NCBI GenBank assembly: GCA_946902875.1
Contig: OX336340.1
Location: 17,127,566-17,191,565 of the forward strand
Origin: Nematopogon swammerdamellus
Taxonomy: Eukaryota; Arthropoda; Insecta; Lepidoptera; Adelidae
DNA: 64,000 nt
Direction of reading: 5' to 3'
The position numbers were made by a program, and so were the translations under genes. This document shows positions 24,257-41,761 of this stretch, piece by piece (the stretch's first letter is position 1; each line of letters starts with the position of its first letter). A model generated the notes under the pieces. That model made no database searches. It worked only from the letters and a program-made list of their open reading frames with translations, and was not told the DNA's origin.

Positions 24257-24262
24257 GAGGAC
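24257..24262. other. Left target-site duplication GAGGAC
   Basis: Identical to 39422-39427. In the LINE frame (minus strand) it reads GTC CTC, Val-Leu, and keeps phase with the codons on both sides. Confidence 0.95.
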
Positions 24263-25150
24263 AGTAGATAGGCAATGAGAGTTCTAACCCACCTCCCGAT
24301 TTTTCTAAGTCCGAGAATCGGGGGGCGTGGCCTAATTTGGGGTGTACGTAGGGCTTCGGAGTCAGGGTTCAGCTCCAGGGTGCCAGGTCAGGGTGCTGCG
24401 CCCTTGGTGTGTACGTAGGCCTTCGGAGTCAGGGTTCAGACCTTCGGATTCAGGATTCAGGCCTTAGGATTCAGGATTCAGGGTTCCAGATTCAGGGTTC
24501 AGGTCCAGGGTGCTAGGTCAGGGTGCTGCGCCCCATCCATTTGAGGCGTACGTAGGCCTTCGGAGTCATGGTTCAGCTCCAGGGTGCTGCACCCCACCAG
24601 CATGGTTCCACATGCACCGAGGCTTCGCCCCTGCCCCCTACCCCACCCCGCCCCTACCACCATCCGCCGCCTCTGCCACCCCTCCGCAATATCGTCCGAG
24701 CGCTTCCCCGCCCCCTGCCTCCCCGCCCGTTCTCCGCGGCTGACTCAGTATCTTTGGAATTTTACCTGTAGAGACGTGACGCCATTTGTCGTGACGTGAA
24801 ATCGGGTCCACAGTACCCCTGCCGACCGAGCGCAGGTAAATAGAGGTAGATAAACTAAGAGTGGTGCGTATTGTCTACCTGATAAGGGGTAGTTGATTCA
24901 CCTCTATTGTCGGGAGGCAGGTTTAAACCTGTAGCAACCTGTAGGAAAGACTGACTCCGCTTACGCATTGAACAGAAAGATAACATTAACAATTGTTCTG
25001 AGAAATGTATTCATACTCAGCATGACTAAGGCATCGTCAGTCAGGTAAGTTGGAGCAGACATGGCGCCGGCCCGCGGCGGGCTTTGGCGGCTGGGAAGTT
25101 TCGCTGATGTATTTAAATATTCCGACACGCTCACTGCGGTAGCAGTCCAT
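24263..25150 (+). repeat. Left terminal inverted repeat (with inner homology)
   Basis: The first about 546 bp (to about 24808) match 38876-39421 inverted with no length difference. The relation continues after a left-specific insert of about 100 bp (about 24809-24911): AACCTGTAGCAACCTG, CATACTCAGCATGACTAAGG, ATGGCGCCG and TTCCGACACGCTCACTG are all shared with the right end. At 24345-24535 it contains irregular 7- to 20-mer repeats of the GGATTCAGG / CTTCGGAGTCAGG type. Homology fades at about 25150, just past the promoter that faces the polymerase gene. Confidence 0.9.
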
Positions 25151-25180
25151 CAGAAGGCTTTGTGGTGTCAATACGTTTGA
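25061..25180 (+). pseudogene. 39-codon leader ORF, relic of the BIR-gene 5' end
   Basis: Starts ATGGCGCCG and encodes a 39-residue peptide whose first about 27 residues (MAPARGGLWRLGSF...SDTLTAVAV) parallel the start of the long form of the BIR ORF at 38491 (MAPQAVGLWRRGSL...SDTLTVTAV). The similarity then stops abruptly, and a TGA follows at 25178. It lies in the inner TIR homology and overlaps the putative polymerase promoter (25110-25144). It is probably a mirror-image remnant and not a functional gene. Confidence 0.6.
25110..25150 (+). promoter_or_regulatory. Core promoter for polymerase gene (in left TIR)
   Basis: TATTTAAA begins at 25110 and an initiator-like GCAGTC has its A at 25144, 34 nt downstream. 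The mirrored pair in the right TIR (38442 and 38408) has exactly the same spacing. It would give an approximately 100-nt leader before the ATG at 25246. Confidence 0.55.
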
Positions 25181-25245
25181 CTCCACAGAGGCACTCTACT
25201 GTGACAGAGTGAATAAACTTTATAAACTAACCTAGAAAATTTTAA

Positions 25246-28200
25246 ATGGAGGCGGAAAAGTGCGCGAGCATTCTGAAGAAGGCCTACGAGCTATTGAAGC
25301 GGGCTCCAGTGGATAGGGACTTGGCGAAAAAGTGGGTTCGTCACTGCAGCATCAGCTTGCGCAGGATAGGGCGGCGGTTACGCAGAGACGGTGTGTCAGT
25401 CGGCGAACGACAAAAACTTCTGGTGTGCATAGGGCGTGTGAAGTGTGTGCAGGCGCAATTTGATACTTTAACGAAGATTGTAGGAGGCGGGAGTGTGCGA
25501 CGCAGTGGGCGGGTGTTGTGGCGAGATCTTGATGCAGCCTTCGCGTCTAGACTCCGGACGGGGGTCATAGTGAATCTCACGCACCGAGATGTTGCAACTT
25601 TCCTCAGCGACGCGCAGCCGCTGTTCGTCAGTCGCATTCGCAACGCGCTCAAACGGGAAAACGCTCTCAAAGTACGTACACGCTAAAGAATCCTTGCATC
25701 GAATTGGAGTTGGGAATTAAAAATAATAGCCCCACTGCATCTTATCTCTCACTTATCATACCTATATACCGTGCTAAAGGGTGGCAGACTAGCCGCCTGT
25801 CACCATGGCATGATCCTTACACCGAATTGAAGGCTGCAATTAAAAATATTAGCCCCACTGAATCTCACCCCATACAAATTGTAAGACCTATAGGACCATG
25901 GTAAAGGATGACAGACTAGTCACCCCTCACCTTGGCATGATCCTTATACGGAATTGAAGGCAGCAATTAAAAATAATAGATCCGCTGAATCTTACTCTCA
26001 CTTATCATACCTATATACCGTGCTAAAGGGCGGCAGACTAGCCGCCTGTCACGTTGGCATGATCCTTACACCGGATTGAAGGCGGTAAAAAAAAAAAAAT
26101 AATAATAATAGTCCCACTGAATCTCACCCCTTACATATCGTAAGAACTATATACCATGCTAAAGGGTAACAGACTAGTCACACCTCACCTTGGCATGATC
26201 CTTACAGGGAATTAAAACCTGCAATAAAAATAAAAAAAAATAAAAATAGCCCACTGTATCTCACTCACACTTAGATATCGTAAGACCTATATACCATGCT
26301 AAAGGGTGACAGACTGGCCACATCTCACCTTGGCGCAGCCCTTCACCTAGTGGGAGCCGATACTAAAAAGTATAATAGTTCCACTACATCCTTTCCCCCG
26401 TACACATCGTAGAGGGCCGTCCTAAAGGGTGACATGCTGCCCACATCAAATTTGTCCGTTTCAGGTGAACGTGGTGCTGGCTGCGGAGTTTAGCAAAGTC
26501 GGAGTTAACGGTGAGGAAGTGACGGAGGACAAACATTTCAACACGGCGAACGCATCCATCATCCAGACCACTGATTTGGCTGCATGGTTCGCCGAGCACG
26601 TCCGGGCTACGATCCAGCGCGACATGGATGAGTTCCAGGAGCGGGGCAGCGGCTGGACTCTACGCTCCGTCACCAGCCTCACTGTTAACATCAACCGTTA
26701 CAACCCCATGCGTGGGAGCTCGTTCATCCCACTCCCACTGGACATCCAGCGCAAGAAGGCATGCATCAACGTTATAAATGAAGATGACCAATGCTTCAAG
26801 TGTGCCGTGCTCTCGGCGCTGCACCCAGCCCACATTCACGCTGACAGGATTTCAAACTACAGGCCGTATGAACATGAATTGAATTTTTACGGAATTGAAT
26901 TTCCTATGAGGCCGAAGGATGTGGACAAGTTCGAGCGACAGAACAGCATCTCTGTCAACGTATACGTGCTGCTTAAAAGAGGCAAGAGCCAGCAGTACGT
27001 AGTCGCTCCAACCCACATCACTAACGAGAAGAGGGATGTCCACATAAATTTACTCCTCATTCAGGATAAATACTGCAGCAGCAGCGATGGTGTGGAGGAG
27101 GAGGGTGAACAGGAAGAGCCCGTCAAGTACCACTACGTGTGGATTAAAAATCTATCCCGCCTGGTGAGCAAACAGCTATCTAAAAATAATGGGCAAAAAC
27201 ACATTTGTGACCGTTGTCTGCACTACTTTCATAGTGCAGAAAAGCTGCAGACGCATGAAGTAGACTGCCGAAAGTTAAACAAGTGCAGAGTAACGCTCCC
27301 CTCACCGCAGAACGCGACCCTGAAGTTCAAAAACTTCAATTATAAGGAGAAGGTGCCCTTCTGTGTATACGCCGACTTCGAGTGTCTGCTCCGGAAGCCG
27401 GAGGGTGGGCAAACTAACGTGCGGCAAGAGCACGAATCATTCAGCGTCGGGTATTACGTCAAGTGCTCGTACGATGACACTCTCTCGCGCTACGGCAGCT
27501 ACCGCGGAGAGAGGCCGGCCGAATGGTTTGCTCGAGAGCTGCTGCAGTTGGCTGAAGACGTCGAGACGGTGTTCTGGTGCCCACTCCCCATGGAACAGCT
27601 GACTGTGGAAAATGAGCAGAGCTTCCGCCGGGCCACTGTGTGCCATATTTGTGAGGGGCAGCTGTACGGCAAGGTGGTACGAGATCACTGCCACCTAACC
27701 GGCAGATACCGTGGACCGGCGCATGAAGACTGTAACCTAAACTACCAGGATTCGAGGATGATCCCGGTAGTGTTCCACAACCTCAGCGGATACGACGCCC
27801 ACTTCATCATAAAAGAGATAGCCACATGCATAGAAGGGCGCATCAACATCATCCCCGTCAACATGGAGCGCTACATCTCCTTTACGAAGCATGTGAACGA
27901 CAGTGACATCTCATTCCGCTTCGTGGATTCGCTGCGCTTCATGGCATCGTCGCTCGAGAAGCTCGCCTCCTACCTGCCAGAATACCGCATCCTCAAGAGT
28001 CAGTTCAACCACCTGGACGAGGGGCAATTCAAGCTGCTCACCCGGAAGGGAGTATTTCCCTACGAGTTCCTCGATTCATGGGCCAAGTTGGAATCGACGC
28101 AGGAGCTGCCGCCGAAGGAGCTGTTCTATAGCGAGCTCACCAACACCAACGTCTCCGCCGAGGACTACGAGCACGCGGAGAAAGTGTGGACTACCTTCGG

Positions 28201-30629
28201 CATCGGCAGCCTGGGAGAATACTCTGACCTCTACCTGAAGACGGACGTGCTGCTTCTCGCCGACGTATTCGAAAACTTCCGGGAGAATTGCCTCAAGACA
28301 TATGGACTGGATCCGGCTCACTATTATACCACACCCGGCCTGACGTGGGATGCTATGCTGAAGTATACAAAAGTGGAACTAGAACTGCTGACTGACATCG
28401 ATATGATGTTGTTCGTGGAGCGTGGCATCCGGGGAGGCATCAGTCAGTGCAGCAACCGGTACTCGCGCGCCAACAACAAATACATGCCAGACTACGACCC
28501 TTACAAGCCGTCCACCTACTTGATGTATTACGACGTAAACAACTTATATGGATTTGCCATGCGCCAGCACCTACCCTACGGATACTTCAAGTGGGTGGAT
28601 GCGGAGACGACCGACTGGCGTGTATCGGACGAGTCACCGGTTGGGTACTTCCTCGAGGTGGACCTGGAGTACCCGCAAGAGCTGCACGACACACACCGCG
28701 ACCTGCCCATGTGCTCCGAACACAAGCGACCGCCCGGATCCAAAGACGCGAAGCTGCTTGCGACGTTGGATCCGAAAACTCGATATGTGATCCACTATCG
28801 AAGCCTGAGGCAAGCCGTCGACTCAGGCTTGAGGATCACTAAAATCCATCGAGTGTTGCAGTTCCGGCAATCGCCGTGGTTGAAGAACTACATCGACCTC
28901 AACACTGCGATGCGCACACGGGCTGGAAATGAGTTTGAGAAGAACTTATACAAACTGATGAATAACGCGGTGTTCGGCAAGACGATGGAGAACGTGCGCA
29001 AGAGGGCCACCATCAAGCTAGTCACCAAGTGGGGTGGCAGGTAAATATCATCTTTATAATATTATACCTTCACTGCGATGCATCTACTTTAAACTGCTGG
29101 ATATACACCTCTCGCACCTTCAGCGGTACATCTGGCTTACTCTTATATGTGTATACTGATAAATATATATTTTCTTTTGTTTCAGATATGGAGCTGAGGC
29201 TCTTATTGCGCAACCGAACTTCCACAGTCGAGCCATATTCGCTGAAGACCTCGTGGCGATTCGGCTGACGAACTTAGACGTTCTCCTGAACAAGCCGATA
29301 TACGTCGGGGCTGCAGTGCTCGACCTCTCCAAGACGTGTGTGTATGAGTTCCACTACGCATACATGCTGGCTGAACATCAGGAGCGTGCCAAGCTCCTCT
29401 ACACCGATACGGACAGCCTCATCTATGAGATTCGGTGTGAGGATGCGTACTCGGTCATGCGGCGGGATATCAACCGGTTCGACACCTCGGACTATCCCGC
29501 CAATAATCCATACGGAATGCCGCTCGCCAACAAGAAGATCGTCGGCCTAATGAAAGATGAGTGCTGCGGACGGATCATGACCGAGTTTGTTGGTTTGCGC
29601 TCAAAGATGTACAGCATACGTGTCGAAGGCAAAGACACCTTCAAGAAGGCCAAAGGTAAATAGATATTTTAACAATTTCTGCGTATTTAAATTTTTCTAT
29701 TTATTTTAAATTTTTTCTGTGTATATAAATATATTTATTTTTATTTTGTTTCAGGTGTAAAGGCTGGAGTAGTCGAGCAGACCATCTGCTTCGACGACTA
29801 CACAGAGTGCCTTCGACAGAACGTCGTAAAGGAGAGGAAACAGCACCTTTTCCAATCAAGGCTACACCAAGTGCAAACCATTGAGCAGCATAAAATTGCA
29901 CTAAGCCCCTACGACAACAAGAGATGCCTGCTGCCCAACACCACCGACACGCTGCCGTGGGGTCACTATAGATTGACTGAGGTGAGATATTATACAGGGT
30001 GTCCCCGGACTGGTGTGGTTCCTTTAAGGAGGCTATTCTACGCTTTGTAACAAACATAATTAGTAAGAGAAGTAGGGTTCTAGGTACGCCTGTTGCGGAG
30101 ATATAAATATTTAAAGTTATTAATTTAGTGTAATGTTGTAATGCTCTAATCGGAAGCGCGCGTGGCGCGGGGAGGCGGACAGCGGGAATACGGACGGGAC
30201 GCGACGCGAGTGAAAGCAAAAAGATAGCCCTCCCCGCCCGCGTACCGCTCGCGCCCCGACTCGCGTCATTCCGCCATGCGTTTCACAGTCGCGCGGTCTA
30301 AAGGCGCCCACACATTGTAGTATGCATTTAGTTTGTTAGGAAATCCTACAATTTTAATGAAAGCTTATATTTAAAAAAATCTTTCACCAGTGCTTTTGTT
30401 ACATAGCGTAGAATAGCCTCCTTAAAGGAAATACACCTGTCCGGGGACACCCTGTATATATATATATATATATGTATATAGGTAATATCTACTATATGCT
30501 GATATACTTTACATGTTTCAATACCTAATTTCTAATGTTGTATGTTTCCAATATCTAATGTAGTATGTTTGTTCTCAGAAGTCGCACGCCGAAGATGACT
30601 ACCTGGGCAGGGCAAATGCTTCGCTATAA
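25246..30629 (+). CDS. pPolB: Protein-primed family B DNA polymerase (pPolB), five exons
   Basis: Replicates the element by protein-primed synthesis. Exons: 25246-25671, 26465-29040, 29186-29655, 29755-29981 and 30579-30629. Every intron has GT...AG, and phases 0, 2, 1, 0 join in frame to give 1,249 residues. Exonuclease motifs: YADFE (D446, E448), [10 protein letters not shown] (D586), YLKTD (D736). Polymerase motifs: YYDVNNLYG (D832), [11 protein letters not shown] (975-985), YTDTDS (1073-1078). A C2H2-like finger lies at about 391-415 and an endonuclease VII-like zinc site (CHIC...[11 protein letters not shown]...CN) at about 535-569. The N-terminal exon matches the family only through its second half. 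Intron 1 holds tandem repeats and intron 4 a MITE; introns 2 and 3 are short (145 and 99 bp). The TAA is part of the ATPase TATA box. All catalytic residues appear present. The last exon (16 codons) is the least certain. Confidence 0.95.
25672..26464 (+). repeat. Intron 1 of pPolB: about six tandem repeats of about 130 bp
   Basis: Each unit carries AATAGCCCCACTG(A/C)ATCT, then TATATACC(G/A)TGCTAAAGGG, then CAGACTAG and a TTGGCATGATCCTTACA block. Units begin near 25716, 25837, 25968, 26096, 26233 and 26366. The unit closely resembles part of the host SINE-C (17785-18110). The intron is bounded by AAAGTACGT (donor at 25672) and CCGTTTCAG (acceptor ending 26464). Confidence 0.8.
29995..30454. 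mobile_element. 460-bp MITE in pPolB intron 4
   Basis: Inverted ends CAGGGTGTCCCCGGAC (29995-) and its reverse complement (ending 30454), flanked by TA on both sides. A second inverted block, CTTTAAGGAGGCTATTCTACGC against GCGTAGAATAGCCTCCTTAAAG, continues the foldback. It has no ORF of note and a GC-rich centre. TA target and lack of coding suggest a Tc1/mariner-type non-autonomous element, by inference. Without it the intron would be about 137 bp, like its neighbours. Confidence 0.8.
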
Positions 30630-30662
30630 ATATGATGCATTTTGCAACATCATATTAGTCGT
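30625..30662 (+). promoter_or_regulatory. Core promoter of the ATPase gene
   Basis: TATAAAT at 30625 overlaps the pPolB stop (TAA 30627-30629). Initiator-like TTAGTC has its A at 30657, 32 nt downstream; the ATG follows 13 nt later. Confidence 0.65.
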
Positions 30663-30669
30663 CGTCAAG

Positions 30670-31362
30670 ATGCAATTTGAGCAACAGGCAATTACGTTGC
30701 CGATTATTAACTTAGATGAGATTGTAGAACAGGATAATCGCAGAAGTAGGCACGGTCAACTATTGCCAAACACTGTACGAGCAGTATTCTGCGGCCCATC
30801 AAACTGTGGAAAGACAAACGCCCTTCTTTCTCTACTCACTCACCTGAATGGATTGAGATTCGAAAATGTATATGTGTACTCCAAATCTCTCAATCAGCCA
30901 AAATATCAATTCTTGAGAAAATTACTGGAGTGTGTGGAGGGGGTGGACTATTTCCCTTTCTCGGAGCACGAGGACGTAATCAAGCCGGAAAATGCACGAG
31001 CCAACTCGATTATGATCTTCGACGACGTCGCGTGCGAAAATCAAGACAACATTAGGGCATTCTTCTCCATGGGGCGACATAGAGACGTCGACTGTTTCTA
31101 TCTCTGCCAGACCTACACCCGCATACCTAAACACTTGGTACGAGACAACACCAACTTATTGGTAATTTTTCGGCAAGATGAAATGAATTTGAGGCACATA
31201 TACGACGACCACGTCAACACGGATATGCCTTATGAGCGATTTAGACAATTGTGCTCAGCATGCTGGAGCAATGGAAAACACAGCTTTGTTACAATCGACA
31301 AAGACAGCGAGCTGGATCAGGGTCGATACCGAAAAGGATTCGATTGTTTTGTGCGTCTATAA
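30670..31362 (+). CDS. FtsK/HerA-type genome-packaging ATPase
   Basis: 230 residues. Predicted to power packaging of element DNA into capsids, as in viruses of the adenovirus/PRD1 lineage. Walker A is GPSNCGKT at 42-49 and Walker B is SIMIFDDV at about 112-119. The YTRIPKHLVRDNTN block near 155-168 carries the asparagine/arginine-rich sensor region of this family. I chose the ATG at 30670 over upstream in-frame ATGs (30565, 30598) because those lie in pPolB intron 4/exon 5 and upstream of the putative transcription start at 30657. The length is normal for Polinton ATPases. The stop TAA is inside the TATA box of the next gene. Confidence 0.93.
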   Translation: MQFEQQAITLPIINLDEIVEQDNRRSRHGQLLPNTVRAVFCGPSNCGKTNALLSLLTHLNGLRFENVYVYSKSLNQPKYQFLRKLLECVEGVDYFPFSEHEDVIKPENARANSIMIFDDVACENQDNIRAFFSMGRHRDVDCFYLCQTYTRIPKHLVRDNTNLLVIFRQDEMNLRHIYDDHVNTDMPYERFRQLCSACWSNGKHSFVTIDKDSELDQGRYRKGFDCFVRL

Positions 31363-31397
31363 ATTGCTCGTACATAAGAATAACCTACTTCAGTCGT
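31358..31397 (+). promoter_or_regulatory. Core promoter of the DUF8207/PY-like gene
   Basis: TATAAA at 31358-31363 contains the ATPase stop codon (31360-31362). TTCAGTCG has its A at 31392 (34 nt). The ATG is at 31417. Confidence 0.65.
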
Positions 31398-31416
31398 ACA
31401 CCGAGCATCATTCAAT

Positions 31417-32298
31417 ATGGCCGAGTTTCGGGATGAAAAACAGCTCCTGCAGCAAATAGATGCTGCAAGTGAGGCAATTAGACGGAAGCACCAGCTGCTG
31501 AAGCAAAACAGAGATGCGGCCGAACGAGTTGCAAACGAAATATTTAAACCAATCGTAATTCCTCTACGCCGCCTAACGAAGCTGCGCCCTATAAAGGAGG
31601 AGCAGTCGCGGGATGAGGAGGAAATTAAAATTGAACCTAAAGATGGTAGTGAGAAGAAGGATGAGGACAAGGAGGAGGAAGAGAGGGAGGAGGAGGAAGA
31701 GAGGGAGGAGGAGGAGGAGGAGGCTGAGGAGGTGGATGAGCATAATTTATCAGCCAGTGATGGCACAGATGCATACATCAAAATGCTGGGTGATCCCGAC
31801 AAGAAGAAACTGATGGATACTACAACTGGAGTTCGCCTATTGAGTGGAAATAAGCTTATGTTGGGAAATTCACCCATAGATTTCCCCGAAGGCTCTGTGC
31901 ACGTGGCGAATAGACTTTACAAGACAACGCCAGGCCTACTCGAATTGCTATTCAGGAAACGACCAAACACCTCTATAGTGCAAGAAAAAGATGTGAAGAA
32001 TTACTCTGAAATGATCACCACCACTAGCGCACATCGAAAATTTTTCGATTCCAAGCTGGGCATTCGGAGTGATAAAAATGTTAAATATAAATACTATATG
32101 AGAGGGAAGGAAGGGCGGTCCCTGACATACAAAAGAGAGAATGGAGCTAAAATCGACTACATTTATTGGGATGATGTAAACGAGCTGGTGGATAGACTTC
32201 GTCTACTCTACGCATCGCAGCACGCCGGCAACAACAACCACCAAAACGAAATTATATCAATCATGGAGGAGCTGAGAGAAACTGGAATAGTGTATTAA
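31417..32298 (+). CDS. Polinton PY-like / DUF8207-type protein with acidic linker
   Basis: 293 residues. The N-terminal 60 are helical with coiled-coil character, followed by a basic patch. Residues of about 62-108 are an almost pure glutamate/aspartate linker (GAGGAG-type codon repeats). The C-terminal half holds the conserved part: VRLLSGNKLMLGNSPIDF, TPGLLELLFRKRP and the terminal YIYWDDVNELVDRLRLL plus NNNHQNEIISIMEELRE. This C-terminal block recurs in Polintons and in many invertebrate proteins annotated with the DUF8207 domain; the function is not established. Its place among virion genes suggests a structural or assembly role, which is inference. Ends in TAT TAA, used as the TATA-like box of the next gene. 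Confidence 0.8.
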   Translation: MAEFRDEKQLLQQIDAASEAIRRKHQLLKQNRDAAERVANEIFKPIVIPLRRLTKLRPIKEEQSRDEEEIKIEPKDGSEKKDEDKEEEEREEEEEREEEEEEAEEVDEHNLSASDGTDAYIKMLGDPDKKKLMDTTTGVRLLSGNKLMLGNSPIDFPEGSVHVANRLYKTTPGLLELLFRKRPNTSIVQEKDVKNYSEMITTTSAHRKFFDSKLGIRSDKNVKYKYYMRGKEGRSLTYKRENGAKIDYIYWDDVNELVDRLRLLYASQHAGNNNHQNEIISIMEELRETGIVY

Positions 32299-32330
32299 TT
32301 CCGGTGAGGGGGGTTAATGGCATCAGTCAC
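32293..32330 (+). promoter_or_regulatory. Core promoter of the coiled-coil protein gene
   Basis: TATTAA at 32293-32298 is the last two codons of the preceding gene. CATCAGTC has its A at 32325, 32 nt downstream. This places transcription start after the first in-frame ATG (32317) and so favours the ATG at 32359. Confidence 0.6.
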
Positions 32331-32358
32331 ACTGCAACCGTCGCTCGAAACAGTCAAA

Positions 32359-32925
32359 ATGAGCATGGACATATTTGGAAGAGTGCTAATGAGAGCGGGC
32401 GCTGGCGGCTCGAGTCGTGGCCCGCCTGGAGAAGGATTTGCAATCACCTCAGACGGTCAATATGATATGCGTGAGATGAGATTGTGCAACGTCGGTATCG
32501 CTCAAGAACCGGATGATGCAGTGTCACTGAAAATGGTGCAAGATATGGTGCAACGAGACATTGAACTAATTATTCATCTGTTGGTGGAAAATATTCAAGA
32601 GCGTACTCAGCGGGAGATCCATGCGTTTACCGCTCGTTTAGAGAGCGCCATTGCCGAGGAGAGTAAACGGTGGAAGGAGCGGCTACAAGAACTCTCCACA
32701 GCGAACGCCAGCCTCATATCACATTTGGATGCGAGACTGCAAACATTGGAGAGCGACGTAACCCGCCTCCGAGACTCCGAACTCCTGTGGGAGGCGTTGA
32801 AAGGCATCGAGGCGAATGTGAATAGTCAACTGGAGTTGGTGCGACGCGACTCTCTGTTGATTACCCAGTTGGATGCGCGATTGAACGAGTTGAAGCATGG
32901 AGCAGGTGGCGGAGGAACTTCATAG
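32359..32925 (+). CDS. Coiled-coil, fibre-like virion protein (probable)
   Basis: 188 residues from the ATG at 32359; an upstream in-frame ATG at 32317 would add 14 but lies before the predicted initiator. After a glycine-rich N-terminus comes a short conserved block (GQYDMREMRLCNV...PDDAVSLKMVQDM) of the kind found near the start of trimeric fibre or tail-spike proteins. The rest is amphipathic with heptad spacing (ERTQREIHAFTARLES, LDARLQTLESDVTRLRDSE, a second LDARLNEL). The C-terminus is GGGG-rich. The role as a receptor-binding or spike protein is inferred from this layout, not demonstrated. It overlaps the integrase start by 29 nt in a different frame. Confidence 0.6.
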   Translation: MSMDIFGRVLMRAGAGGSSRGPPGEGFAITSDGQYDMREMRLCNVGIAQEPDDAVSLKMVQDMVQRDIELIIHLLVENIQERTQREIHAFTARLESAIAEESKRWKERLQELSTANASLISHLDARLQTLESDVTRLRDSELLWEALKGIEANVNSQLELVRRDSLLITQLDARLNELKHGAGGGGTS

Positions 32926-33805
32926 GCCGGCGCGAAGGCGATACCAGCGTCGGCACTTTGACATACGGGAATTGGATGAGACTTGGCAAGCTGACCTCGT
33001 CGATATGACTGCCTATTCACGATACAACAAAGGTTTCAAGTACCTACTAACCGTCATTGATATATTCTCAAAGTTTGCATGGGTTGCACCCACAAAAACG
33101 AAAAATGGCCGCGATGTGACGAACGCTATGAAATTAATCTTGGAGAATGATCGCACACCGAAAAACTTGCACGTCGACCGGGGTAAAGAGTTCTACAACG
33201 GAGCCTTTAAGGCGCTCATGCATCAGCACAACATCCACATGTACTCAACGTACAGTAACATGAAAGCGGCGATCTGCGAACGCTTCAATCGCACCCTCAA
33301 GGAGAGAATGTGGAAACAGTTTACACGACGCGGCACTTACAAATGGTGTGATATTCTGCCTGCGATCGTCGCCGACTACAACAGCACCAGACATAGTACA
33401 ATTAAAATGAAACCGTGTGACGTCACGAGCGGGACGATGATAATAAATAGTCCCCCGACTCCACTGCAGCGGCGGCGGCGGCAGCGGCGCGCGAAGTTTA
33501 CCTTGGGTGACAAAGTACGCATAAGCAAGTACAAACACGTCTTCGAGAAGGGCTACACGCCGAACTGGACTACTGAAATATTCACCATATCAGCTGTAAT
33601 GCCCACATCACCCACCACCTACAAGTTGATGGATTACAACAGTCGACCGATTGAAGGCGGCTTCTATGAGGAGGAGCTGCTGAAAGCCCGACACCCTGAC
33701 ATATACCTCGTGGAAAAGGTGCTCAAGAAGCGTGCCAATCAGCTGTATGTCAAATGGCTAGGATTTGATAATTCGCACAACAGTTGGATAGATTATAAAA
33801 TGTAA
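32897..33805 (+). CDS. INT: Retroviral-type integrase with C-terminal chromodomain
   Basis: 302 residues; joins the element ends to target DNA and made the 6-bp GAGGAC duplication. Catalytic core: WQADLVDM (D33), LHVDRGKEF (D94) and ICERFNRTLKERM (E128), with 33 residues between the last two acids, as in Polinton integrases. A basic stretch (QRRRRQRRAKF) and an SH3-like region (FTLGDKVRISKYKHVFEKGYTPNW, cut here) follow. The last about 35 residues (YLVEKVLKKRANQLYVKWLG and the SWI end) form a chromodomain, which in other integrases guides insertion to certain chromatin. No N-terminal HHCC finger is present. It is the one gene without a clear TATA/initiator pair upstream; its start lies within the previous gene. 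Confidence 0.95.
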   Translation: MEQVAEELHRPARRRYQRRHFDIRELDETWQADLVDMTAYSRYNKGFKYLLTVIDIFSKFAWVAPTKTKNGRDVTNAMKLILENDRTPKNLHVDRGKEFYNGAFKALMHQHNIHMYSTYSNMKAAICERFNRTLKERMWKQFTRRGTYKWCDILPAIVADYNSTRHSTIKMKPCDVTSGTMIINSPPTPLQRRRRQRRAKFTLGDKVRISKYKHVFEKGYTPNWTTEIFTISAVMPTSPTTYKLMDYNSRPIEGGFYEEELLKARHPDIYLVEKVLKKRANQLYVKWLGFDNSHNSWIDYKM

Positions 33806-33832
33806 ACATGTTGTGATACTGTATCAGTTCAA
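33794..33832 (+). promoter_or_regulatory. Core promoter of the PLA2-domain virion protein gene
   Basis: TATAAAA at 33794-33800 sits in the last codons of the integrase. TATCAGTTC has its A at 33826 (32 nt); the ATG is 15 nt further at 33841. Confidence 0.7.
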
Positions 33833-33840
33833 CGTTAGCT

Positions 33841-34620
33841 ATGGTAGTGACAAGACCTAAGCGCTGCGGTAAAGGGCTCCTCAACACGATCATCAGCAAT
33901 CTGCCTGTGGAGTTACACGTCCCCGGATATCAGTACTGCGGCCCCGGTACGAAACTGAGTCGGCGACTAAAGCGCGGCGATCCCGGCATCAACCCGCTCG
34001 ACGCGGCATGCAAAGATCACGACATTGCATACAATTTGAATAAGTCGGTTGAAGCGAGAAATCAAGCCGACCAAATACTCGCAGAGAAGGCGTGGCAAAG
34101 GGTGGTTGCTAAAGACGCCGACTTGGGCGAAAAGGTGACCGCTTGGGGTGTGACCAATACGATGAAAGTGAAATCAAAACTCGGAATGGGTATGAAGAAG
34201 AAGAAGAATAAGAGTGGGAGCAAGATACACCTGCGGCAAATAGTAAATTCTGCAAAGGATTCAATGCAAGTGGGTGGTATATCACCAATAAAATCAGCAC
34301 TACAAGGCGCTCGCGCGGCCCTTAGAAAGGTCGGCGGAAAGCGAAATGTGCGCATACCGCGTATCTTACCCATCCCCACAAGGGTTGGCGGGGTGCTCCC
34401 CTTCCTCATTCCCCTGTTGGCTGGACTCAGCGCCACTGGAGCGTTAGCGGGAGGAGCGGCCGGTATTGCGAAGGCTGTCAACGACGCCAGCGCTGCAAAA
34501 CGCCAATTGGAGGAGAACAAACGTCACAATTCAACGATGGAGGCGATTTCTCTAGGCAAAGGCGTGTACCTGAAACCATACCGACAAGGGTTCGGACTCT
34601 ACCTGCCAAAAAACGGGTAA
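33841..34620 (+). CDS. Minor virion protein with parvoviral-type PLA2 domain and hydrophobic core
   Basis: 259 residues. Residues of about 26-100 resemble the phospholipase A2 domain of parvovirus VP1: calcium-loop-like YCGPG at 32-36 and the catalytic HDIAY dyad (H60, D61). A lysine-rich patch (MKKKKNKSG) lies at about 118-126, and a glycine/alanine-rich hydrophobic segment (VGGVLPFLIPLLAGLSATGA) at about 180-205 resembles membrane-active adenovirus core/minor proteins. By analogy it helps the particle leave the endosome. The last four codons, CCA AAA AAC GGG TAA, contain the slippery heptamer A AAA AAC (34608-34614) one codon before the stop. A fraction of ribosomes may shift into the protease frame. 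Confidence 0.8.
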   Translation: MVVTRPKRCGKGLLNTIISNLPVELHVPGYQYCGPGTKLSRRLKRGDPGINPLDAACKDHDIAYNLNKSVEARNQADQILAEKAWQRVVAKDADLGEKVTAWGVTNTMKVKSKLGMGMKKKKNKSGSKIHLRQIVNSAKDSMQVGGISPIKSALQGARAALRKVGGKRNVRIPRILPIPTRVGGVLPFLIPLLAGLSATGALAGGAAGIAKAVNDASAAKRQLEENKRHNSTMEAISLGKGVYLKPYRQGFGLYLPKNG

Positions 34621-34672
34621 ATCTGCCGCGTCGAGCCCTCACCGATGCGGATCTGCTGAAATTTGCGAGGGC
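34608..34672 (+). promoter_or_regulatory. Candidate -1 ribosomal frameshift signal (slippery site plus pseudoknot)
   Basis: The heptamer A AAA AAC (34608-34614) is in the correct register with the zero frame. After an 11-nt spacer, stem 1 pairs 34626-34632 with 34644-34650 (7 bp, one G-U). The loop bases GCCCTC at 34635-34640 pair with GAGGGC at 34667-34672 (6 bp), giving an H-type pseudoknot with a 2-nt loop 1 and a 16-nt last loop. The spacer is slightly longer than the usual 5-9 nt. The -1 frame is the protease, open with no stop from the heptamer onward. Confidence 0.65.
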
Positions 34673-34976
34673 ATTAAGAATTCCACATTTCCGCGGCGTT
34701 TTCATGCGCAACGATTTGCCGCGGCGTGTTTGGAAATATGAAGCGTCTGTTGTGAATCTCGATGACAAGAGTCGGCCGGGGACGCATTGGGTAGCGTACA
34801 GGAAGAGTGGCGACACTGTAGTGTATTTCGATAGTTTTGGAGACCTTCGACCGCCGCAAGATCTTATGAAATATTTTAATGTAGCCAGCGTCGATTATAA
34901 TTATAATAGATATCAGGACTATGATACGGTCGTTTGCGGCCACTTGTGCCTTAAGTTTCTCGCCGGAGAATTGTAA
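34614..34976 (+). CDS. PRO: Adenain-like cysteine protease (virion maturation), in -1 frame without own ATG
   Basis: About 120 residues from the frameshift point to TAA at 34974. Catalytic residues of the adenovirus-protease (C5) fold are visible: His in GTHWVAY (34785-34787), Asp in YFDSFG (34831-34833), Gln in RYQDYD (34914-34916), Cys in VVCGHLC (34935-34937). It should cleave capsid precursors during maturation. Conserved-looking sequence (RALTDADLLKFA and RIPHFRGVF) lies before the first ATG of the frame (34704), so starting there would lose part of the fold. No ATG exists upstream in the open frame, and there is no TATA/initiator pair. A -1 shift from the minor virion protein solves both problems; non-AUG initiation or splicing are alternatives. 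Confidence 0.85.
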   Translation, partial: RVNLPRRALTDADLLKFARALRIPHFRGVFMRNDLPRRVWKYEASVVNLDDKSRPGTHWVAYRKSGDTVVYFDSFGDLRPPQDLMKYFNVASVDYNYNRYQDYDTVVCGHLCLKFLAGEL

Positions 34977-35185
34977 TATTATTATTATATTTCTATGCAT
35001 TATGAGTGCATATATTGTATCTAGCATATATGATTGAAATATATATTTAAGTGTGAACATACAGATGTATTTATTTGTGCAGAACCCTATTACCAAGCCA
35101 TCTATCCATCAGTCTGCCAGTCCTTCTGTCTGTCGCCAGATTCATATGTGGCTCTGTCACTAAGCCGTCTGCCCATCCGTCTGTC
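34977..35185 (+). other. Short spacer between protease and minor capsid genes
   Basis: AT-rich, then pyrimidine-rich (CTGTCTGTC-type repeats at 35100-35185). The reading frame of the minor capsid gene runs back to 35075 without a stop, but lacks an ATG there and lies upstream of the promoter. Confidence 0.5.
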
Positions 35186-35224
35186 TATATAACCCTCTTA
35201 CTCGTGCGATTTGCATCAGTCGCC
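35186..35224 (+). promoter_or_regulatory. Core promoter of the minor capsid gene
   Basis: TATATAA at 35186-35192; GCATCAGTCG has its A at 35218, again 32 nt. The ATG at 35225 would leave a leader of only about 7 nt. Confidence 0.7.
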
Positions 35225-35908
35225 ATGGATGAGTCTTTCATGTTAACGGTGTCAGGGGAATCCTCTACACTTCAGGCATCATATTTTCCCCCAATTGAAT
35301 TATCCCCATTCAAACGTTACGCTCTCGGCCTCGTTGAGTTGCTTACTTTCAATTCCATTCCGAATATTGATGTGGGATACAACAGAGTACGTATAGGAGA
35401 TGATGTCATCACAATACCCACCGGGAGTTATGAGATACAAGATATTGAACGATACCTACAGAGCGCTGTATCTCCGAGTGTCACCATAAGCCTGCAGCCC
35501 AACAACAATGAGCTGCGTAGTGAGATAAGGTGTACACAACCCGTAGATCTCACCGGCGAAGACTCAATCGCACGCCTGCTGGGATTCAAACGACGCGTAC
35601 TCGCGCCAAATATCCTACACAAGTCTGATTTACCAATCTCAATACTCAAAGTGAGTGCTTTGCGAGTTGAATGCAACATTACTACGGGCGCCTATATGAA
35701 TGAGCACCGAGTGCATACAATTCACGAATTTTTCCCAGCAGTTCCACCCGGATATAAGATCATTGAGGTACCGTCGCAAATCATTTACCTTCCAGTCGCC
35801 GTGCAGACAATACATACCCTGTTGTTGAAAATTGTCGATCAAGACGGCGCCGAGGTAAATTTTCGAGGTGAAACTATCACGATACGGGTGCATATTAAAA
35901 CGTCATAA
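35225..35908 (+). CDS. mCP: Minor capsid (penton-like, single jelly-roll) protein
   Basis: 227 residues. Predicted to form the fivefold vertices of the capsid. Recognisable Polinton penton blocks include IPTGSYEIQDIERYL (near 60-75), NNELRSEIRC (near 95), SIARLLGFKRRVLAPN (about 117-132), ALRVECNITTGAY (about 148-160), HTIHEFFPAVPPGYKI (about 166-182) and NFRGETITIRVHI at the end. These are beta-rich with no transmembrane segment, in keeping with a jelly-roll. I start at the ATG at 35225 because it follows the predicted initiator by 7 nt and no earlier ATG exists in frame. The sequence is intact. Confidence 0.85.
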   Translation: MDESFMLTVSGESSTLQASYFPPIELSPFKRYALGLVELLTFNSIPNIDVGYNRVRIGDDVITIPTGSYEIQDIERYLQSAVSPSVTISLQPNNNELRSEIRCTQPVDLTGEDSIARLLGFKRRVLAPNILHKSDLPISILKVSALRVECNITTGAYMNEHRVHTIHEFFPAVPPGYKIIEVPSQIIYLPVAVQTIHTLLLKIVDQDGAEVNFRGETITIRVHIKTS

Positions 35909-35944
35909 ATGGGTATCGTGCACAACCCGAGGCGGACGCAAATC

Positions 35945-35984
35945 TATAATAGTACACCAACATGCCCGAAAGCCATCAGTCTTC
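35945..35984 (+). promoter_or_regulatory. Core promoter of the major capsid gene
   Basis: TATAATA at 35945; GCCATCAGTC has its A at 35978 (33 nt). The leader to the ATG at 36150 is about 170 nt, the longest of the virion genes. Confidence 0.6.
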
Positions 35985-36149
35985 GTACACCTCGCAAGGA
36001 GCGAACACATCCAGTAGGCGGGAGCCTAACACGTCAGAATATTCAATTTCTGAAGAGTCTGGGACTCCGTCTTCGTCGTCGTCGTGGGCGAGAGTAAGAA
36101 GAGTCATCTGCTGCTCCACCTGCTTCATTAGACTACATTGGCGTCCAAG

Positions 36150-36800
36150 ATGGCGGAAATGTTAGCCATTAAACGTGGAGTGCTGTTTGACGAGTCCATC
36201 GCGCACTATGAGATTCATGCACACCAACCGTATGCGTCATCGACCTATCACAACAAAGATGAAGTCCGCATTGCAGTACAGAACCAAGATCTGTACATTC
36301 TGCCGAGCCATAGCGTACTGCACGTGCGAGGACGATTAACAGCAGCAGATGGCAGCACCGCAGCAGCAACGACGACGAGTTTCGCCAATATGGGCGTGTG
36401 CCACCTCTTTGAGCAGATTCGCTATGAGATAAATGCTGTGGAGATTGATCGAAACAAAAATGTCGGCCTCACAACCCTCATGAAGGGCTATGTCTCCCTG
36501 ACTTCAGACCAGATCAACACTAATGTCGGCTGGTTGGAGGGTGATGATGACAAATTGACCAACGCTGAGGGATACTTTGATGTAGCCATTCCACTGAAAT
36601 TACTTCTCGGCTTCGCTGAAGACTATCACCGAATCGTGGTGAACGCCAAACATGAGTTGATTTTGACGCGAGTCAATAACGACGCCAACGCTGTCATCTC
36701 AGCGGCCGATGGGGACTTTAAAATTACAATCCACAAGATTGAATGGCTGCTCCCCTATGTGAAAGTTGCGGATAAGTTCGGAACCGGTGTAAAACTGTAG
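36150..36800 (+). pseudogene. MCP: Major capsid protein, N-terminal part (interrupted by SINE)
   Basis: About 210 genuine residues from ATG 36150 (good context, A at -3 and G at +4), followed by a few SINE-encoded codons and a TAG at 36798. It is the double jelly-roll major capsid protein that builds the hexagonal faces. The first jelly-roll region is recognisable in YILPSHSVLHVRGRL, CHLFEQIRYEINAVEID, LMKGYVSLT, YFDVAIPLKLLLGFAEDY and the IEWLLPYVKVADKF end. The insertion falls between the two jelly-roll halves, at about 36780. If transcribed, this would give a truncated protein that cannot form a capsomer. Confidence 0.88.
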
Positions 36801-37062
36801 GTCCCTTCCCTTGCCCCTTACTAGGTGGTAGGCTCAAATTGTAGCCGACTGGGTTGGTACCACCGTACTGGATGTAAGATGGCCGCAAGCAACCTCGGTT
36901 GTGTTCTCCTCTAGTCCAGTATAGCCAGCAATCCAGGGAAGTCTCCGGTATGGCACCTACCTTCTCGGAGGTGATATTGGCTGGTTAGAGCATGTGCTTT
37001 GGCCCCTCCGACTCAGCCACCCATACCGGATTGCATAAAAAAAAAAAAAAAAAAAAAGGAGA
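36780..37062 (+). mobile_element. SINE-B insertion in the major capsid gene
   Basis: TTCGGAACCGGTGTAAAACT to an A-run at 37037-37057. It matches the host SINE-B copy at 9498-9752 block by block (GGTAGGCTCAAATTGTAGCC, GATATTGGCTGG, ACTCAGCCACCCATA). It is 5'-truncated and in the same orientation as the gene. I found no clear target duplication; GGA occurs at both junctions. Confidence 0.85.
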
Positions 37063-37646
37063 AAATTCAACTACTCAATTACATCTCTCGAGATCCGGAG
37101 ATTTCGATGAGTTTTCGCTCTTGGGACCTCTACGAATATCCATCACTACCGATGAGCACGAAACATGTGTGGGCCGTGAAGACTGCAACGCAACTCGAGA
37201 AACCGCGCTACGTCATCGTGGCCTTTCAGACGAAACGTAAAAATGCTGCGACGCAAGACGCCAGCTGCTTCGATCATTGCAAACTGAGTGATATTAAACT
37301 CTATCTGAATTCACAATGTTACCCGTACGTCAATCTGCATATTGACTTCAGTCGCAATCAATTTGCCGTGCTGTACGATTTGTTCTGCAGCTTTCAACGA
37401 TCATACTATCAGAAAGAGGCAATGGAGCCTCTGATCACAAAGAAGCAATTTGAACAGAGCGCCCCTCTGATTGCCATAGATTGCTCTAAACAGAATGATA
37501 GCGTTAAAGCTGGTCCAGTGGACATCAAATTAGAGTTTGAATCACATGCTCCTTTTCCACCGCAAACGTCGGCCTACTGTCTTATTATACACGATCGCAT
37601 AGTTCAGTACACACCCATCAGCGGTACAGTGCGCAAATTAATGTAG
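37063..37646 (+). pseudogene. MCP: Major capsid protein, C-terminal part
   Basis: About 194 codons open in one frame from the SINE border to TAG at 37644. It encodes the second jelly-roll: SFRSWDLYEYPSLP, KHVWAVKTATQLEKPRYVI, FDHCKLSDIKLYLNSQCYPY, NQFAVLYDLFCSFQRSYY and a beta-rich C-terminus. No other lesion is visible, so the SINE is the only damage to this gene. It has no start codon or promoter of its own. I leave the two halves described separately. Confidence 0.88.
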
Positions 37647-37957
37647 GTTGCCCCCACTTATGTAAATAGATGTGGCACTTTTTTTGAAATATTTTAGCAT
37701 TAAGATTTAGTTGTACTAAGTGATTCTTGTAGTGTGTGAAACAAAAAATAAATATTTGCTGACGAAATTTAGGTTGCCCCATTTATGTAGATAATGGGTT
37801 TAAGTGACTTTTCTAAAATATATATCATGTACACTTTAGCATTAAGATTTGTGAAAATAAATAAACATTTCTCCTAACTTTTGTTTCATTTATGGGTGTG
37901 GGTGGGTTGAAATAAATGTATTCACTGTTAAATGTAAAAATATTTATTGAAAATTAA
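37647..37957. terminator. Convergent 3' ends of major capsid and BIR genes
   Basis: Two diverged tandem copies of an about 110-bp block (AGGTTGCCCC...TTTAGCATTAAGATTT at 37647-37710 and 37771-37852), each followed by AATAAA-type signals (about 37748 and 37856) on the + strand. On the minus strand, CAATAAA (complement of about 37943-37949) follows the BIR stop. This is the only place in the element where two transcripts converge. Confidence 0.6.
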
Positions 37958-38341
37958 TCATTTCAAGTTAAAGGCTCCATCGTCTGATGGCGCATACAAG
38001 TATGGCGAATAGCTCGGAATGTCGATCTCATCCAATCCTTTTGCTTTGACTGTGGCGAAGTCAGCTCCCTTCATTATGTAGACGAAAGCGCAGCGGTCTA
38101 GCCTCGTGTGCTCCTCCCACGGTGTGTCTTCCGGTCGCCACTGGTTGAGTGTTCCTCCGCAGTAAAAGCACGCCACTTTGTCACCAAAACCAGTGTAGAA
38201 AAACCCAGCCTTAACCATTTCTTCAGGCTTCTGCCGGAGGGCGCGTGGCCAATCGTTGAATGTTTGAAGACGTGCCGACTCGGACGAATAGCGCTCGTGC
38301 CTCGGCCCCGAGGTGTGCACGTGGATAGTTGTTAGCGACAT
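37958..38341 (-). CDS. IAP-like protein with a single BIR domain
   Basis: 127 residues from the ATG at 38341. The frame also starts at 38491 (177 residues), but that ATG is upstream of the predicted initiator (38408). Residues of about 24-92 are a BIR domain: RLQTFNDWP, then GFFYTGFGDKVACFYCGGTL and the PWEEH zone; zinc ligands C58, C61, H78, C84. The spacing between His and last Cys is five residues and the usual WF pair is missing, a small deviation. No RING follows. BIR proteins of baculoviruses and insects bind caspases or IAP antagonists; here it may delay death of the cell while the element replicates. It faces inward from the right TIR and is the only minus-strand gene, so it looks like a captured cellular gene. 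Confidence 0.88.
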   Translation of the reverse strand: MSLTTIHVHTSGPRHERYSSESARLQTFNDWPRALRQKPEEMVKAGFFYTGFGDKVACFYCGGTLNQWRPEDTPWEEHTRLDRCAFVYIMKGADFATVKAKGLDEIDIPSYSPYLYAPSDDGAFNLK

Positions 38342-38401
38342 TGTAGCGGTGGGCGCAGGCGTGCAGCTCGGCGTAATGTTGGTGGCTGACTGCTCATCGT
38401 T

Positions 38402-38444
38402 GTCGACTGCGGTCACAGTGAGCGTGTCGGAATTTTTAAATGCA
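38402..38444 (-). promoter_or_regulatory. Core promoter of the BIR gene (in right TIR)
   Basis: On the minus strand CATTTAAA begins at 38442 and GCAGTC has its A at 38408, 34 nt downstream. It is the mirror of 25110/25144 in the left TIR, with one mismatch in the TATA-like box. Confidence 0.55.
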
Positions 38445-38491
38445 CCAGCCAAACTTCCCCGCCGCCAAAGCCCGACGGCCTGCGGCGCCAT

Positions 38492-38943
38492 GTCTGCATT
38501 CCTACACCATTAGGCTCCAACCTACCTTACCTTAGTCATGCTGAGTATGAACACATTTCTCAGAACAATTTTTATGTTATCTTTATATTAAATGCGTAGG
38601 GGAGAGTAAGTCGTTCCTACAGGTTGCTACAGGTTAAAACCTGCCACCCGACGTCACGTCACCACAAATGGCGTCACGTCTCGCCAGGTAAAATTCCAAA
38701 GATATTGAGTCAGCCATGTCTGCATTCCTACACCATTAGGCTCCAACCTACCTGACTGACGATGCCTTAGTCATGCTGAGTATGAATACATTTCACAGAA
38801 CATTGTTACGTTATCTTTATATTAATGGGTTGGGGGCTAAGTCGTTCCTGCAGGTTGCTACAGGTTAAAACCTGCCACCCGATGTCACGTCACGACAAAT
38901 GGCGTCACGTCTCTACAGGTAAAATTCCAAAGATACTGAGTCA
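38492..38943 (-). repeat. 226-bp tandem duplication in the right TIR
   Basis: GTCTGCATTCCTACACCATTAG begins both units (38492 and 38718), and both end in ATTCCAAAGATA(T/C)TGAGTCAGCC. The copies differ at scattered positions and by small indels (the second has CTGACTGACGATGC, the first CTTAC). The duplication is therefore not brand-new, even though the outer TIRs look near-identical. Confidence 0.85.
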
Positions 38944-39421
38944 GCCGCGGAGAACGGGCGGGGAGGCAGGGGGCGGGGAAGCGCTCGGACGATATTGCGG
39001 AGGGGTGGCAGAGGCGGCGGATGGTGGTAGGGGCGGGGTGGGGTAGGGGGCAGGGGCGAAGCCTCGGTGCATGTGGAACCATGCTGGTGGGGTGCAGCAC
39101 CCTGGAGCTGAACCATGACTCCGAAGGCCTACGTACGCCTCAAATGGATGGGGCGCAGCACCCTGACCTAGCACCCTGGACCTGAACCCTGAATCTGGAA
39201 CCCTGAATCCTGAATCCTAAGGCCTGAATCCTGAATCCGAAGGTCTGAACCCTGACTCCGAAGGCCTACGTACACACCAAGGGCGCAGCACCCTGACCTG
39301 GCACCCTGGAGCTGAACCCTGACTCCGAAGCCCTACGTACACCCCAAATTAGGCCACGCCCCCCGATTCTCGGACTTAGAAAAATCGGGAGGTGGGTTAG
39401 AACTCTCATTGCCTATCTACT

Positions 39422-39427
39422 GAGGAC
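39422..39427. other. Right target-site duplication GAGGAC
   Basis: Second copy of the 6-bp duplication created by integrase-mediated insertion. See 24257-24262. Confidence 0.95.
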
Positions 39428-41761
39428 CCCGAGGTGGTCGCTTAATTTCAGCGACGTGTTTTGGAAGGAAGGAGCTGGCGTGAACGCCGTTCTCTTCGCA
39501 CTGAACGCACACACTTGTGTCTTCGATGCGTTGAACACGACCAAGTTGCTCCGGCCCCATTCGGCAATATACCGGAGGGTTTGCTCGAGTTCAGACACAA
39601 GTGCTAGCCTCTTCTCGTCCACAACGTTCCGTCCGGCTGAAGGGTGACTGGTGCAGGATCCGTGTGCCGTACTGTCGTCTGCATAACAATGTATGTTGCC
39701 AAGTGACAGCATATCATTGATATGCAGAAGAAACAGCGTGGGAGACAACACAGAACCCTGCGGTACACCGGCATTCACTGGCATGGCGTCCGACGAGCAG
39801 CCGTCCACAAGGACTTGAATGCTACGCCCATGTAGGAAGTCGGTGACCCAGTCACAAAGGCCAGAGGGGATTCCGTACGCCGGCAGCTTGCCCAGAAGCG
39901 CTTTATGCCAGACCCGGTCAAATGCCTTGGCAATATCGAGTCCAATTGCCAAGGATTCACCGTACCCTTCAAGCGCTTTCCCCCAAAGGTGAGTGACGTA
40001 CGCTAGGAGATCACCAGCTGATCGGTTTGGCCGGAAGCCGTATTGCCGATCGCTGATGAGATTATTTGTCTCTAGGTACGTCATGAGCTGCGTATTGATA
40101 ACGCGCTCCATCACCTTGCAGAGGAGGGAGGTGATTGCTATAGGTCGGTAGTTTGACGGGTCAGAGCGATCGCCCTTTTTTGGGACATGCTGAACGAAAG
40201 CTGATTTCCAAGCTGCCGGCACGCGGCCAGTTGTGTACGAGAGGCGAAAGAGGCGCGTCAGTACTGGAGCCAGCTCGGGAGCACACCTCTTCAACACCAA
40301 TGCAGGCACTCTGTCCGGCCCACTCGCTTTCCTGGGGTCTAGGGCAAGAAGCTCCTTCCGCACAGTTCTCTGTCGGAACTGTACTTCTGGCATGGAGTTC
40401 TCACACCTAGGTATGGATGGAGGAGAAGCTCCCCCATCATCCAGGTGGGAATTCCCCGCAAAAAGAGATACCAGGAGGTCGGCTTTATCTTTTGCGGAGT
40501 GAGCGAGTGATCCTCCAGTGCGCTGCAGAGGTGGAAGTGAGGAGCGGCAGAAATTCGACTCGACAGATTTGGCGAGAGACCAGAACTCACGGCTCCCAGT
40601 TGGGTGCCGGTTCAGCCTATCGCCAATTCTGCCGATATGCTCGAATTTAGCCCTGGCGATAGCCCTCTTGCAGGATCTGGAGAGGCGGTTGTAGTTCTTC
40701 TTCAATGCGGAGATATTTGGATCTCGTCTGGTACGAGCACGTGACCATGCTCGATATGCCGCAGCTTTAGCCGCGGCAGCATCGGCACACTCCCGGCTGT
40801 ACCAAGGTTGGCTCTTACCTCCGAGGCGAAGGGTGGCATTGGGAATAAACATTTCCATTCCACCCAAAATCACCTCGGCTACGGTATTGGCGCATTCCGA
40901 CGGATCGTCCGAATTGAAGCATAGCTCTCTCCAAGGGAAGGATGCAAAATGCTCTCGCATTCCATCCCAATCTGCCGACGCGTAGTGCCAGATTCGACGT
41001 GCTCCCTCAGTACGTGTCTGAGGGGGCGACGAAGGCACTGTAGATCCCACTAGGCAATGGTCGGAGGAGCCAAGAGGAGCGCTCACTGTTACCTTATACC
41101 CAGCAGGATTAGACGTCAGCAGAAGATCCAGCAAAGAGGGTGTATGACCGTCTATATCTGGTATTCTGGTAGGTTGATCTACCAGTTGAGACAGATCATA
41201 CGTCAGGGCAAAGTCGTAAGCGGCTCTCCCCGCGGAATCGGTTCTGTTGGAGCCAAGCCACACCTCGTGGTGGGCATTAAAGTCTCCAACGAGTACCATA
41301 TCCGCTGTAGGGAACCGCTCTTGGACTTCGTCTGCCGCTCTACTCAGGTACTCAAATAGGCGGGCTGTCTCCGCATCACCTGAGTGCGACCTGTAGACGC
41401 AGGCGTACACGCGCGATTCCGACCCCAGATCCACGTGGACCCAGAGTACTGAAAACGCGAGGTCTTCTTGACAGCGCAGGCGACGACAGCAAATATCCGC
41501 CCTAGCAAACAAGCATACCCCGGCACGGGAACGGAAGGCTTCTTCCAGGGTGTACCCGGGGTAGTGCAAGTACGACGTGTCGGCTGGGCGAGATATTTGC
41601 GTCTCCGTCAGGAATAACATAGCCGGCTTTCCTGTCTCCAAATGGTGGTGGACGGCATCCAAATTGGAGTGCAATCCCCGCACATTTGTTACGTCCACGC
41701 TAAAATGTGTGGGGTTGTGCACCGCTGAGCATAAGTTTTTCCTTTTATTTTGTGCTGCCAT
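39428..41761 (-). pseudogene. LINE ORF, N-terminal part: AP endonuclease and reverse transcriptase
   Basis: 778 codons on the minus strand from ATG at 41761 to the Polinton junction. Residues of about 15-235 form an apurinic/apyrimidinic-type endonuclease (FLTETQ, VLVGDFNAHHEVW, GSSDHCLV). A linker of about 200 residues follows. About 465-760 is the reverse transcriptase: YRPIAITSLLCKVMERV, LDIAKAFDRVWH, GVPQGSVLSPTLFLL and the catalytic CYADDS. These activities nick the target and copy the LINE RNA at the nick (target-primed reverse transcription). The frame is intact up to the insertion, and then runs three codons into the Polinton before a stop. No ORF1 with a nucleic-acid-binding domain is evident upstream. 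Confidence 0.9.

Follow-up and report, generated by a model that had tools for sequence, protein, structure and literature searches.

The window, that is the whole stretch of 64,000 nucleotides analysed here, contains a Polinton/Maverick element whose main features are collected in Table 1. Besides the genes listed there, PolB and an A32-type ATPase are encoded between the terminal inverted repeats (TIRs), and all the features by which Polintons/Mavericks are recognised are present: a viral-type PolB, an rve integrase, an A32-type ATPase, a double jelly-roll capsid protein, an adenain-like protease and TIRs. The PolB frame (region 26429-29663) stops at 29044 and is followed by an ORF in another frame (29253-29663), for which a Pfam search of that ORF alone gave no match; the gene thus appears split, and may be a broken copy or contain an unrecognised intron. 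Near the right TIR, the element also carries an ORF on the minus strand (37961-38491) with a BIR (inhibitor of apoptosis) domain (PF00653, E 1e-22), and the outer edge of this TIR is overlapped by a LINE-type ORF, also on the minus strand (39413-41761), with endonuclease and reverse transcriptase.

The 3' end of the PLA2 gene (34606-34620) reads CCA AAA AAC GGG TAA and contains a heptamer of the X XXY YYZ type, A AAA AAC, in the 0-frame register ahead of a -1 ORF. The initial annotation had proposed that the frame entered by a -1 shift at this heptamer (34608-34614) is that of the protease and that this frame has no ATG before 34704, and both statements were borne out on the window sequence. 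In the family of elements to which that of the window belongs, the -1 frame is uninterrupted over the 94 codons that precede the slip codon, likewise without ATG.

Table 1. Features of the Polinton element and of its PLA2-protease junction (positions in the window)
Feature	Position	Strand	Remark
Polinton/Maverick element, 15.2 kb	24262-39422		bounded by two TIRs
Left terminal inverted repeat, 546 bp	24262-24807	+	100% complementary to 38877-39422
Integrase (rve, chromodomain), upstream neighbour	32897-33805	+	domain match
PLA2-domain virion-type protein, 259 aa, 0 frame	33841-34620	+	PF08398, E 2.1e-12
Slippery heptamer A AAA AAC, 0-frame register	34608-34614	+	exact in 95/102 loci
Adenain-type cysteine protease, -1 frame (RVN-LPRRALTD...)	34614-34976	+	120 aa after the shift plus stop
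0-frame stop TAA	34618-34620	+	one codon past the heptamer
Predicted pseudoknot stem 1, 5' arm	34626-34633	+	11-nt spacer after the heptamer; window family only
Predicted pseudoknot stem 2, 5' arm	34635-34640	+	in the loop of stem 1
Predicted pseudoknot stem 1, 3' arm	34643-34650	+	8 bp with the 5' arm
Predicted pseudoknot stem 2, 3' arm	34667-34672	+	6 bp with the 5' arm
First ATG of the protease frame	34704-34706	+	invariant Met, at the end of model strand 23-28, after helix 8-17
Double jelly-roll major capsid protein (first part), downstream neighbour	36138-36800	+	PF21738, E 9e-37
Right terminal inverted repeat, 546 bp	38877-39422	-	complementary to the left TIR

The protease and its N-terminal segment

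A Pfam search with the window protease gave no match, including to PF00770. A profile search matched it to 1avp (E 0.0078), and a Foldseek search with its predicted model (pLDDT 92) returned the adenovirus proteinase 1nln as top match (E 3.3e-7). Eight sequences from the same genome all have the His and Cys that match the adenain active site in the alignment, and in a 53-sequence alignment the His is invariant and the Cys kept in at least 90%. Judged by profile and predicted fold, the window protease is of the adenain type (C5).

The conserved start of the protease family, LPxRALT...IPHFRG, is encoded before 34704. In the model, residues 8-17 form a helix and residues 23-28 a strand; the helix and the greater part of the strand are encoded before this ATG, and a protein begun at 34704 would therefore lack them. 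This segment had initially been described as resembling the catalytic domain; it is indeed conserved and part of the fold, but it supplies the N-terminal helix together with the larger part of the first strand, and the adenain catalytic residues fall after the ATG.

The junction in five families of the same genome

A search of the genome with the protease gave 136 matches, from which 102 distinct loci were read (110 records including 8 duplicates), while 31 places lay outside this count. A script parsed 100 of the junctions; its requirement for AAAA shortly ahead of an LPxRAL motif biases it towards the heptamer, and L112 and L117, which it passed over, were read individually. The loci fall into five families (F1 to F5, with 29, 6, 14, 47 and 6 loci, respectively, F1 being that of the window), the proteases of which are 49-70% identical to that of the window. 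At all 102 loci, the protease frame is -1 relative to the one in which the heptamer is read, and the 0-frame stop follows 0 or 1 codon past AAC. The exact heptamer is present at 95 of the 102 loci and, among the 79 of these 102 in which the PLA2 frame is open to the heptamer at full length, at 77. Conservation of the heptamer in related Polintons, named as a check in the initial annotation, was found across five families of the same genome. Among the 100 parsed loci, the heptamer and the LP codons are separated by 8 nt at 35, by 11 nt at 52 and by 14 nt at 13, and these changes in threes indicate that variation in length preserved the -1 frame. In the main form of F3, the -1 frame opens just one codon ahead of the slip codon.

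The two exceptions with an open PLA2 frame are L044, with T AAA AAC, and L117, with A ATA AAC. T AAA AAC is a weaker slippery site, and the sequence of L117, whose protease is also altered at otherwise conserved residues, should be incapable of slipping. Among the remaining deviations, a subgroup of F3 (L053, L067 and L068) combines T AAA AAC with a broken PLA2 frame, and L032 and L057 have a shortened A run, which itself shifts the frame. Loss of the heptamer is not claimed to track decay of the PLA2 gene, since L044 and L117 deviate despite their open PLA2 frame.

At 100 of the 102 loci no in-frame ATG precedes LP, the exceptions being L057, a broken copy, and L040. An in-frame ATG in a related element had been named at the outset as evidence against frameshifting, and it was found in this way in one locus only, L040, beside an intact heptamer. 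This F2 element (positions 1246-1270) has the heptamer, the PLA2 stop and an overlapping ATG, as TAATG, ahead of the protease, and could use either route, frameshifting or reinitiation.

It is extremely improbable that the layout reflects decay, i.e. a dead protease whose start was lost. Several copies are broken, but in 26 of the 29 loci of the window family the PLA2 frame is uninterrupted as far as an exact heptamer, the layout is common to five families and found in families with both frames open, and the active-site His and Cys are conserved as described above.

The sequence of the heptamer shows selection beyond the amino-acid constraint. In eight PLA2 representatives, 58 alignment columns have the same residue throughout (Met and Trp left out), and the same codon is used in five of them, two of which are the slip codons. 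Outside the site, Asn is encoded by 48 AAC versus 115 AAT codons in these representatives, and AAC is the rarer codon in every one of them (2 versus 21 in that of F5). Given Lys-Asn, the probability of AAA AAC in five families would be approximately 1e-4 if the families were independent, a figure that is overstated because they share ancestry and are not fully independent. When 70 bases are compared without gaps, with the heptamer as anchor, its seven bases are the only invariant ones, although gaps further upstream lower the agreement outside it. The eight PLA2 frames have no further in-frame A AAA AAC at any of their 2018 other codon positions.

The same codons bear on transcriptional slippage, in which the polymerase would add one A on the A run and thus produce some mRNAs encoding the fusion. 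Poly-Lys linkers in relatives and a run of 11 A in a distant contig (see below) are in keeping with such slippage. An A6-A7 run is short for polymerase slippage, however, and the run here is A6 (A7 in F4); moreover, the final C is kept despite AAT being the commoner Asn codon, and polymerase slippage needs no C. We consider this explanation quite improbable.

Termination followed by reinitiation, or a non-AUG start, would have ribosomes restart past the PLA2 stop at a near-cognate codon (CTG at 34623) or at an overlapping ATG. In the representatives of F1, F4 and F5, this CTG encodes the Leu of the conserved LP motif, L040 carries TAATG at the appropriate place, and 60 of the best 120 protease relatives listed have a predicted start 0-2 residues ahead of LP (15 had no match to the motif), where predicted starts may be ATG, GTG or TTG (P0106 and P0107 begin with Leu). 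However, no start codon beside the stop is conserved: the Leu codon is CTA in F2 and CTT in F3, near-cognate codons vary between families, none shared at a common place was found across ten representatives, and TAATG occurs only in L040 among the loci read. Reinitiation would also leave unexplained the exact heptamer in 77 of the 79 copies with an open PLA2 frame and a heptamer-LP spacing that preserves the -1 frame, and is thus improbable.

Alternative splicing, which would join an upstream exon to the protease frame, is conceivable in a eukaryotic host, and adenoviruses splice heavily according to the available part of PMC8310308. We nevertheless regard it as very improbable, as no AG acceptor lies at a shared position in ten representatives. 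In F1, no AG lies between the heptamer and LP, and the closest one before LP stands 21 nt ahead of the heptamer. In F3, the nearest acceptor candidate spans the -1-frame stop. In addition, some relatives on unannotated contigs are predicted as one protein.

The -1 register, the missing ATG, the heptamer in five families and the predicted in-frame fusions in relatives argue for synthesis of the protease through a programmed -1 frameshift of the ribosome at A AAA AAC, to which we assign a probability of approximately 0.83. None of the other explanations accounts for the kept AAA AAC codons. We infer slippage, its rate and the ratio of the products: a share of the ribosomes would slip at the heptamer and yield a minor PLA2-protease fusion, and the remaining ribosomes would stop at TAA and yield the PLA2 protein as the main product. 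The fusion may carry the protease into the particle and be cleaved later.

The predicted downstream pseudoknot

The initial annotation described a classic H-type pseudoknot downstream of the heptamer. In the window family this prediction is strong, with 8 bp in stem 1 instead of the 7 first given and 6 bp in stem 2, and the spacer of 11 nt between heptamer and stem was confirmed. On our own rough scoring, in kcal/mol, the window pseudoknot reached -21.9, a value attained by none of 2000 synonymous reshuffles (closest -21.2). Along the element, from 26000 to 37700, this score was reached at 3 of 2925 start positions, all overlapping the site, and one other place among 3195 positions of the whole window, outside 26000-37700, scored better (-25.5). 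A nested fold of the window sequence, at -25.8 kcal/mol (z -1.2), is more stable than the rough pseudoknot score. Within 34618-34700, the arms of the pseudoknot can also be used in this nested fold, and a switch between the two is possible. The 29 F1 loci are nearly uniform inside the pseudoknot; one of them, L036, carries an A to G change at 34668 in stem 2, where pairing is retained as G-U.

With two search ranges, the representatives of F2 to F5 yielded no such pseudoknot (scores 0 to -4.3). Consensus folding of the window and five F2 sequences gave no conserved fold, and pair counting on the same sequences gave no covariation. Other folds downstream of the heptamer in five F2-F5 sequences did not stand out either (z -0.7 to +1.2). 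A conserved 3' stimulatory structure, as expected of a programmed -1 site, was thus not seen, the structure being strong in the window family only; some known -1 frameshift sites lack such a structure. The predicted pseudoknot is at most a lineage-specific accessory or enhancer. Placed 11 nt downstream, it would add to the slip in the window family, and the other families would depend on the heptamer beside the stop codon or on an element not yet seen. What was first proposed as a whole is strongly supported for the heptamer and the -1 fusion, but not for the pseudoknot as a general stimulator.

Relatives in other genomes and known systems

Protein searches yielded at least 7308 relatives of the protease and 1256 of the PLA2 protein, and the best 120 of each were examined; the named species among the relatives listed are insects. 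Among the best 120 of the 1256 PLA2 relatives, 68 end in KN followed by 0-2 residues. A single predicted protein of PLA2 type plus protease was found in 34 of the 159 distinct relatives listed, 32 of them with PF08398, although some of the annotated fusions may contain predicted introns. These single-frame fusions occur in ants, flies, beetles, wasps and unannotated contigs, and those of the named insects have the same two parts in the same order as in the window, but without a change of frame. The PLA2-protease fusion is thus predicted elsewhere as a natural product. Among the best 120 of the protease relatives, 13 have KKL shortly ahead of LP, and in all 13 the next residue can be encoded by codons starting with A or G, a pattern that fits, weakly, a stop after AAC in the other frame. 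In P0163, P0188, P0200 and others, the PLA2 and protease parts are joined via poly-Lys stretches. In relatives without terminal KN, long A runs may serve as another type of slippery site.

A search of IMG/VR with the 53-row protease alignment gave one distant metagenomic viral contig, IMGVR_UViG_3300046323_000841 (19,385 bp; L119). No match came from searches with the capsid protein of the window, with a protease alignment of eight rows or with a PLA2 alignment, and the protease of the contig used as query in IMG/VR found itself alone. This protease is 41% identical to that of the window and lies in the -1 frame of a preceding 207-aa ORF (2309-2932), for which homology to PLA2 was not found (E 0.21). 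After a stop at 2908-2910, the -1 frame stays open across an A11C run (2909-2920) and on into the protease. Positions 2914-2920 read A AAA AAC in frame, although the A11 homopolymer may reflect misassembly or transcriptional slippage. The first ATG of the protease (3028) corresponds to the inner Met of that of the window.

Frameshifting of a protease onto a membrane-active virion protein might be an old strategy shared by Polinton-like DNA viruses, whose lineages would switch among a -1 frameshift, fusion in one frame and a start of its own for the protease, a proposal to which we give slightly less than an even chance. If it holds, the IMG/VR contig, with its different upstream gene and A11C run, would count as an independent example.

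According to the available part of PMC8310308, relatively few eukaryotic DNA viruses are known to frameshift. The available text of a 2024 preprint (PMC11071296) proposes -1 frameshift isoforms for the adintovirus Penton, from KnotInFrame, and suggests by a similar relationship a Hexon-Adenain (Hexain) fusion. The adintoviruses share with the Polinton described here the wider virus group, the protease type and the proposed -1 shift, but the partner in that text is the major capsid protein, with conservation not given, whereas here it is the PLA2 protein and the heptamer, its register and its codons were compared over five families. The initial statement that frameshifting was unreported for a Polinton adenain is thus preceded by this Hexon-Adenain suggestion, and holds for the PLA2-protease case, for which our literature search found no report in Polintons; the available parts of PMC8097293, PMC10120064, PMC12567637 and PMC11071308 contained nothing on it. 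Sf Maverick 1 and 2 of Spodoptera cells, described in PMC5803895, are likewise from a moth and encode a PLA2-domain CAP and an adenain-like PRO of similar size as two ORFs; the frame relation and the start of PRO are not discussed in the part of that paper available.

The PLA2-protease case would be a new variety of -1 frameshifting, a process well known in retroviruses and rarely reported for animal DNA viruses. If the reading is correct, it would support the view that Polintons make virions and would account for the starts of such proteases being absent or cut short in gene predictions. Retroviral Gag-Pro frameshifting uses sites of the A AAA AAC type. As in Gag-Pro, a structural gene has a slippery heptamer at its 3' end, followed by a stop soon after, a protease in the -1 frame and, in the window family, a predicted 3' pseudoknot; the dose of the protease and its entry into the particle would be tied to a membrane-active virion protein as they are there. 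Unlike Gag-Pro, the element is a DNA transposon or virus, the protease is an adenain-type cysteine rather than an aspartic protease, its partner is a PLA2 protein, the pseudoknot is not conserved and the frameshift is predicted from sequence. If true, frameshifting of the Polinton protease would be the DNA-virus counterpart of Gag-Pro.
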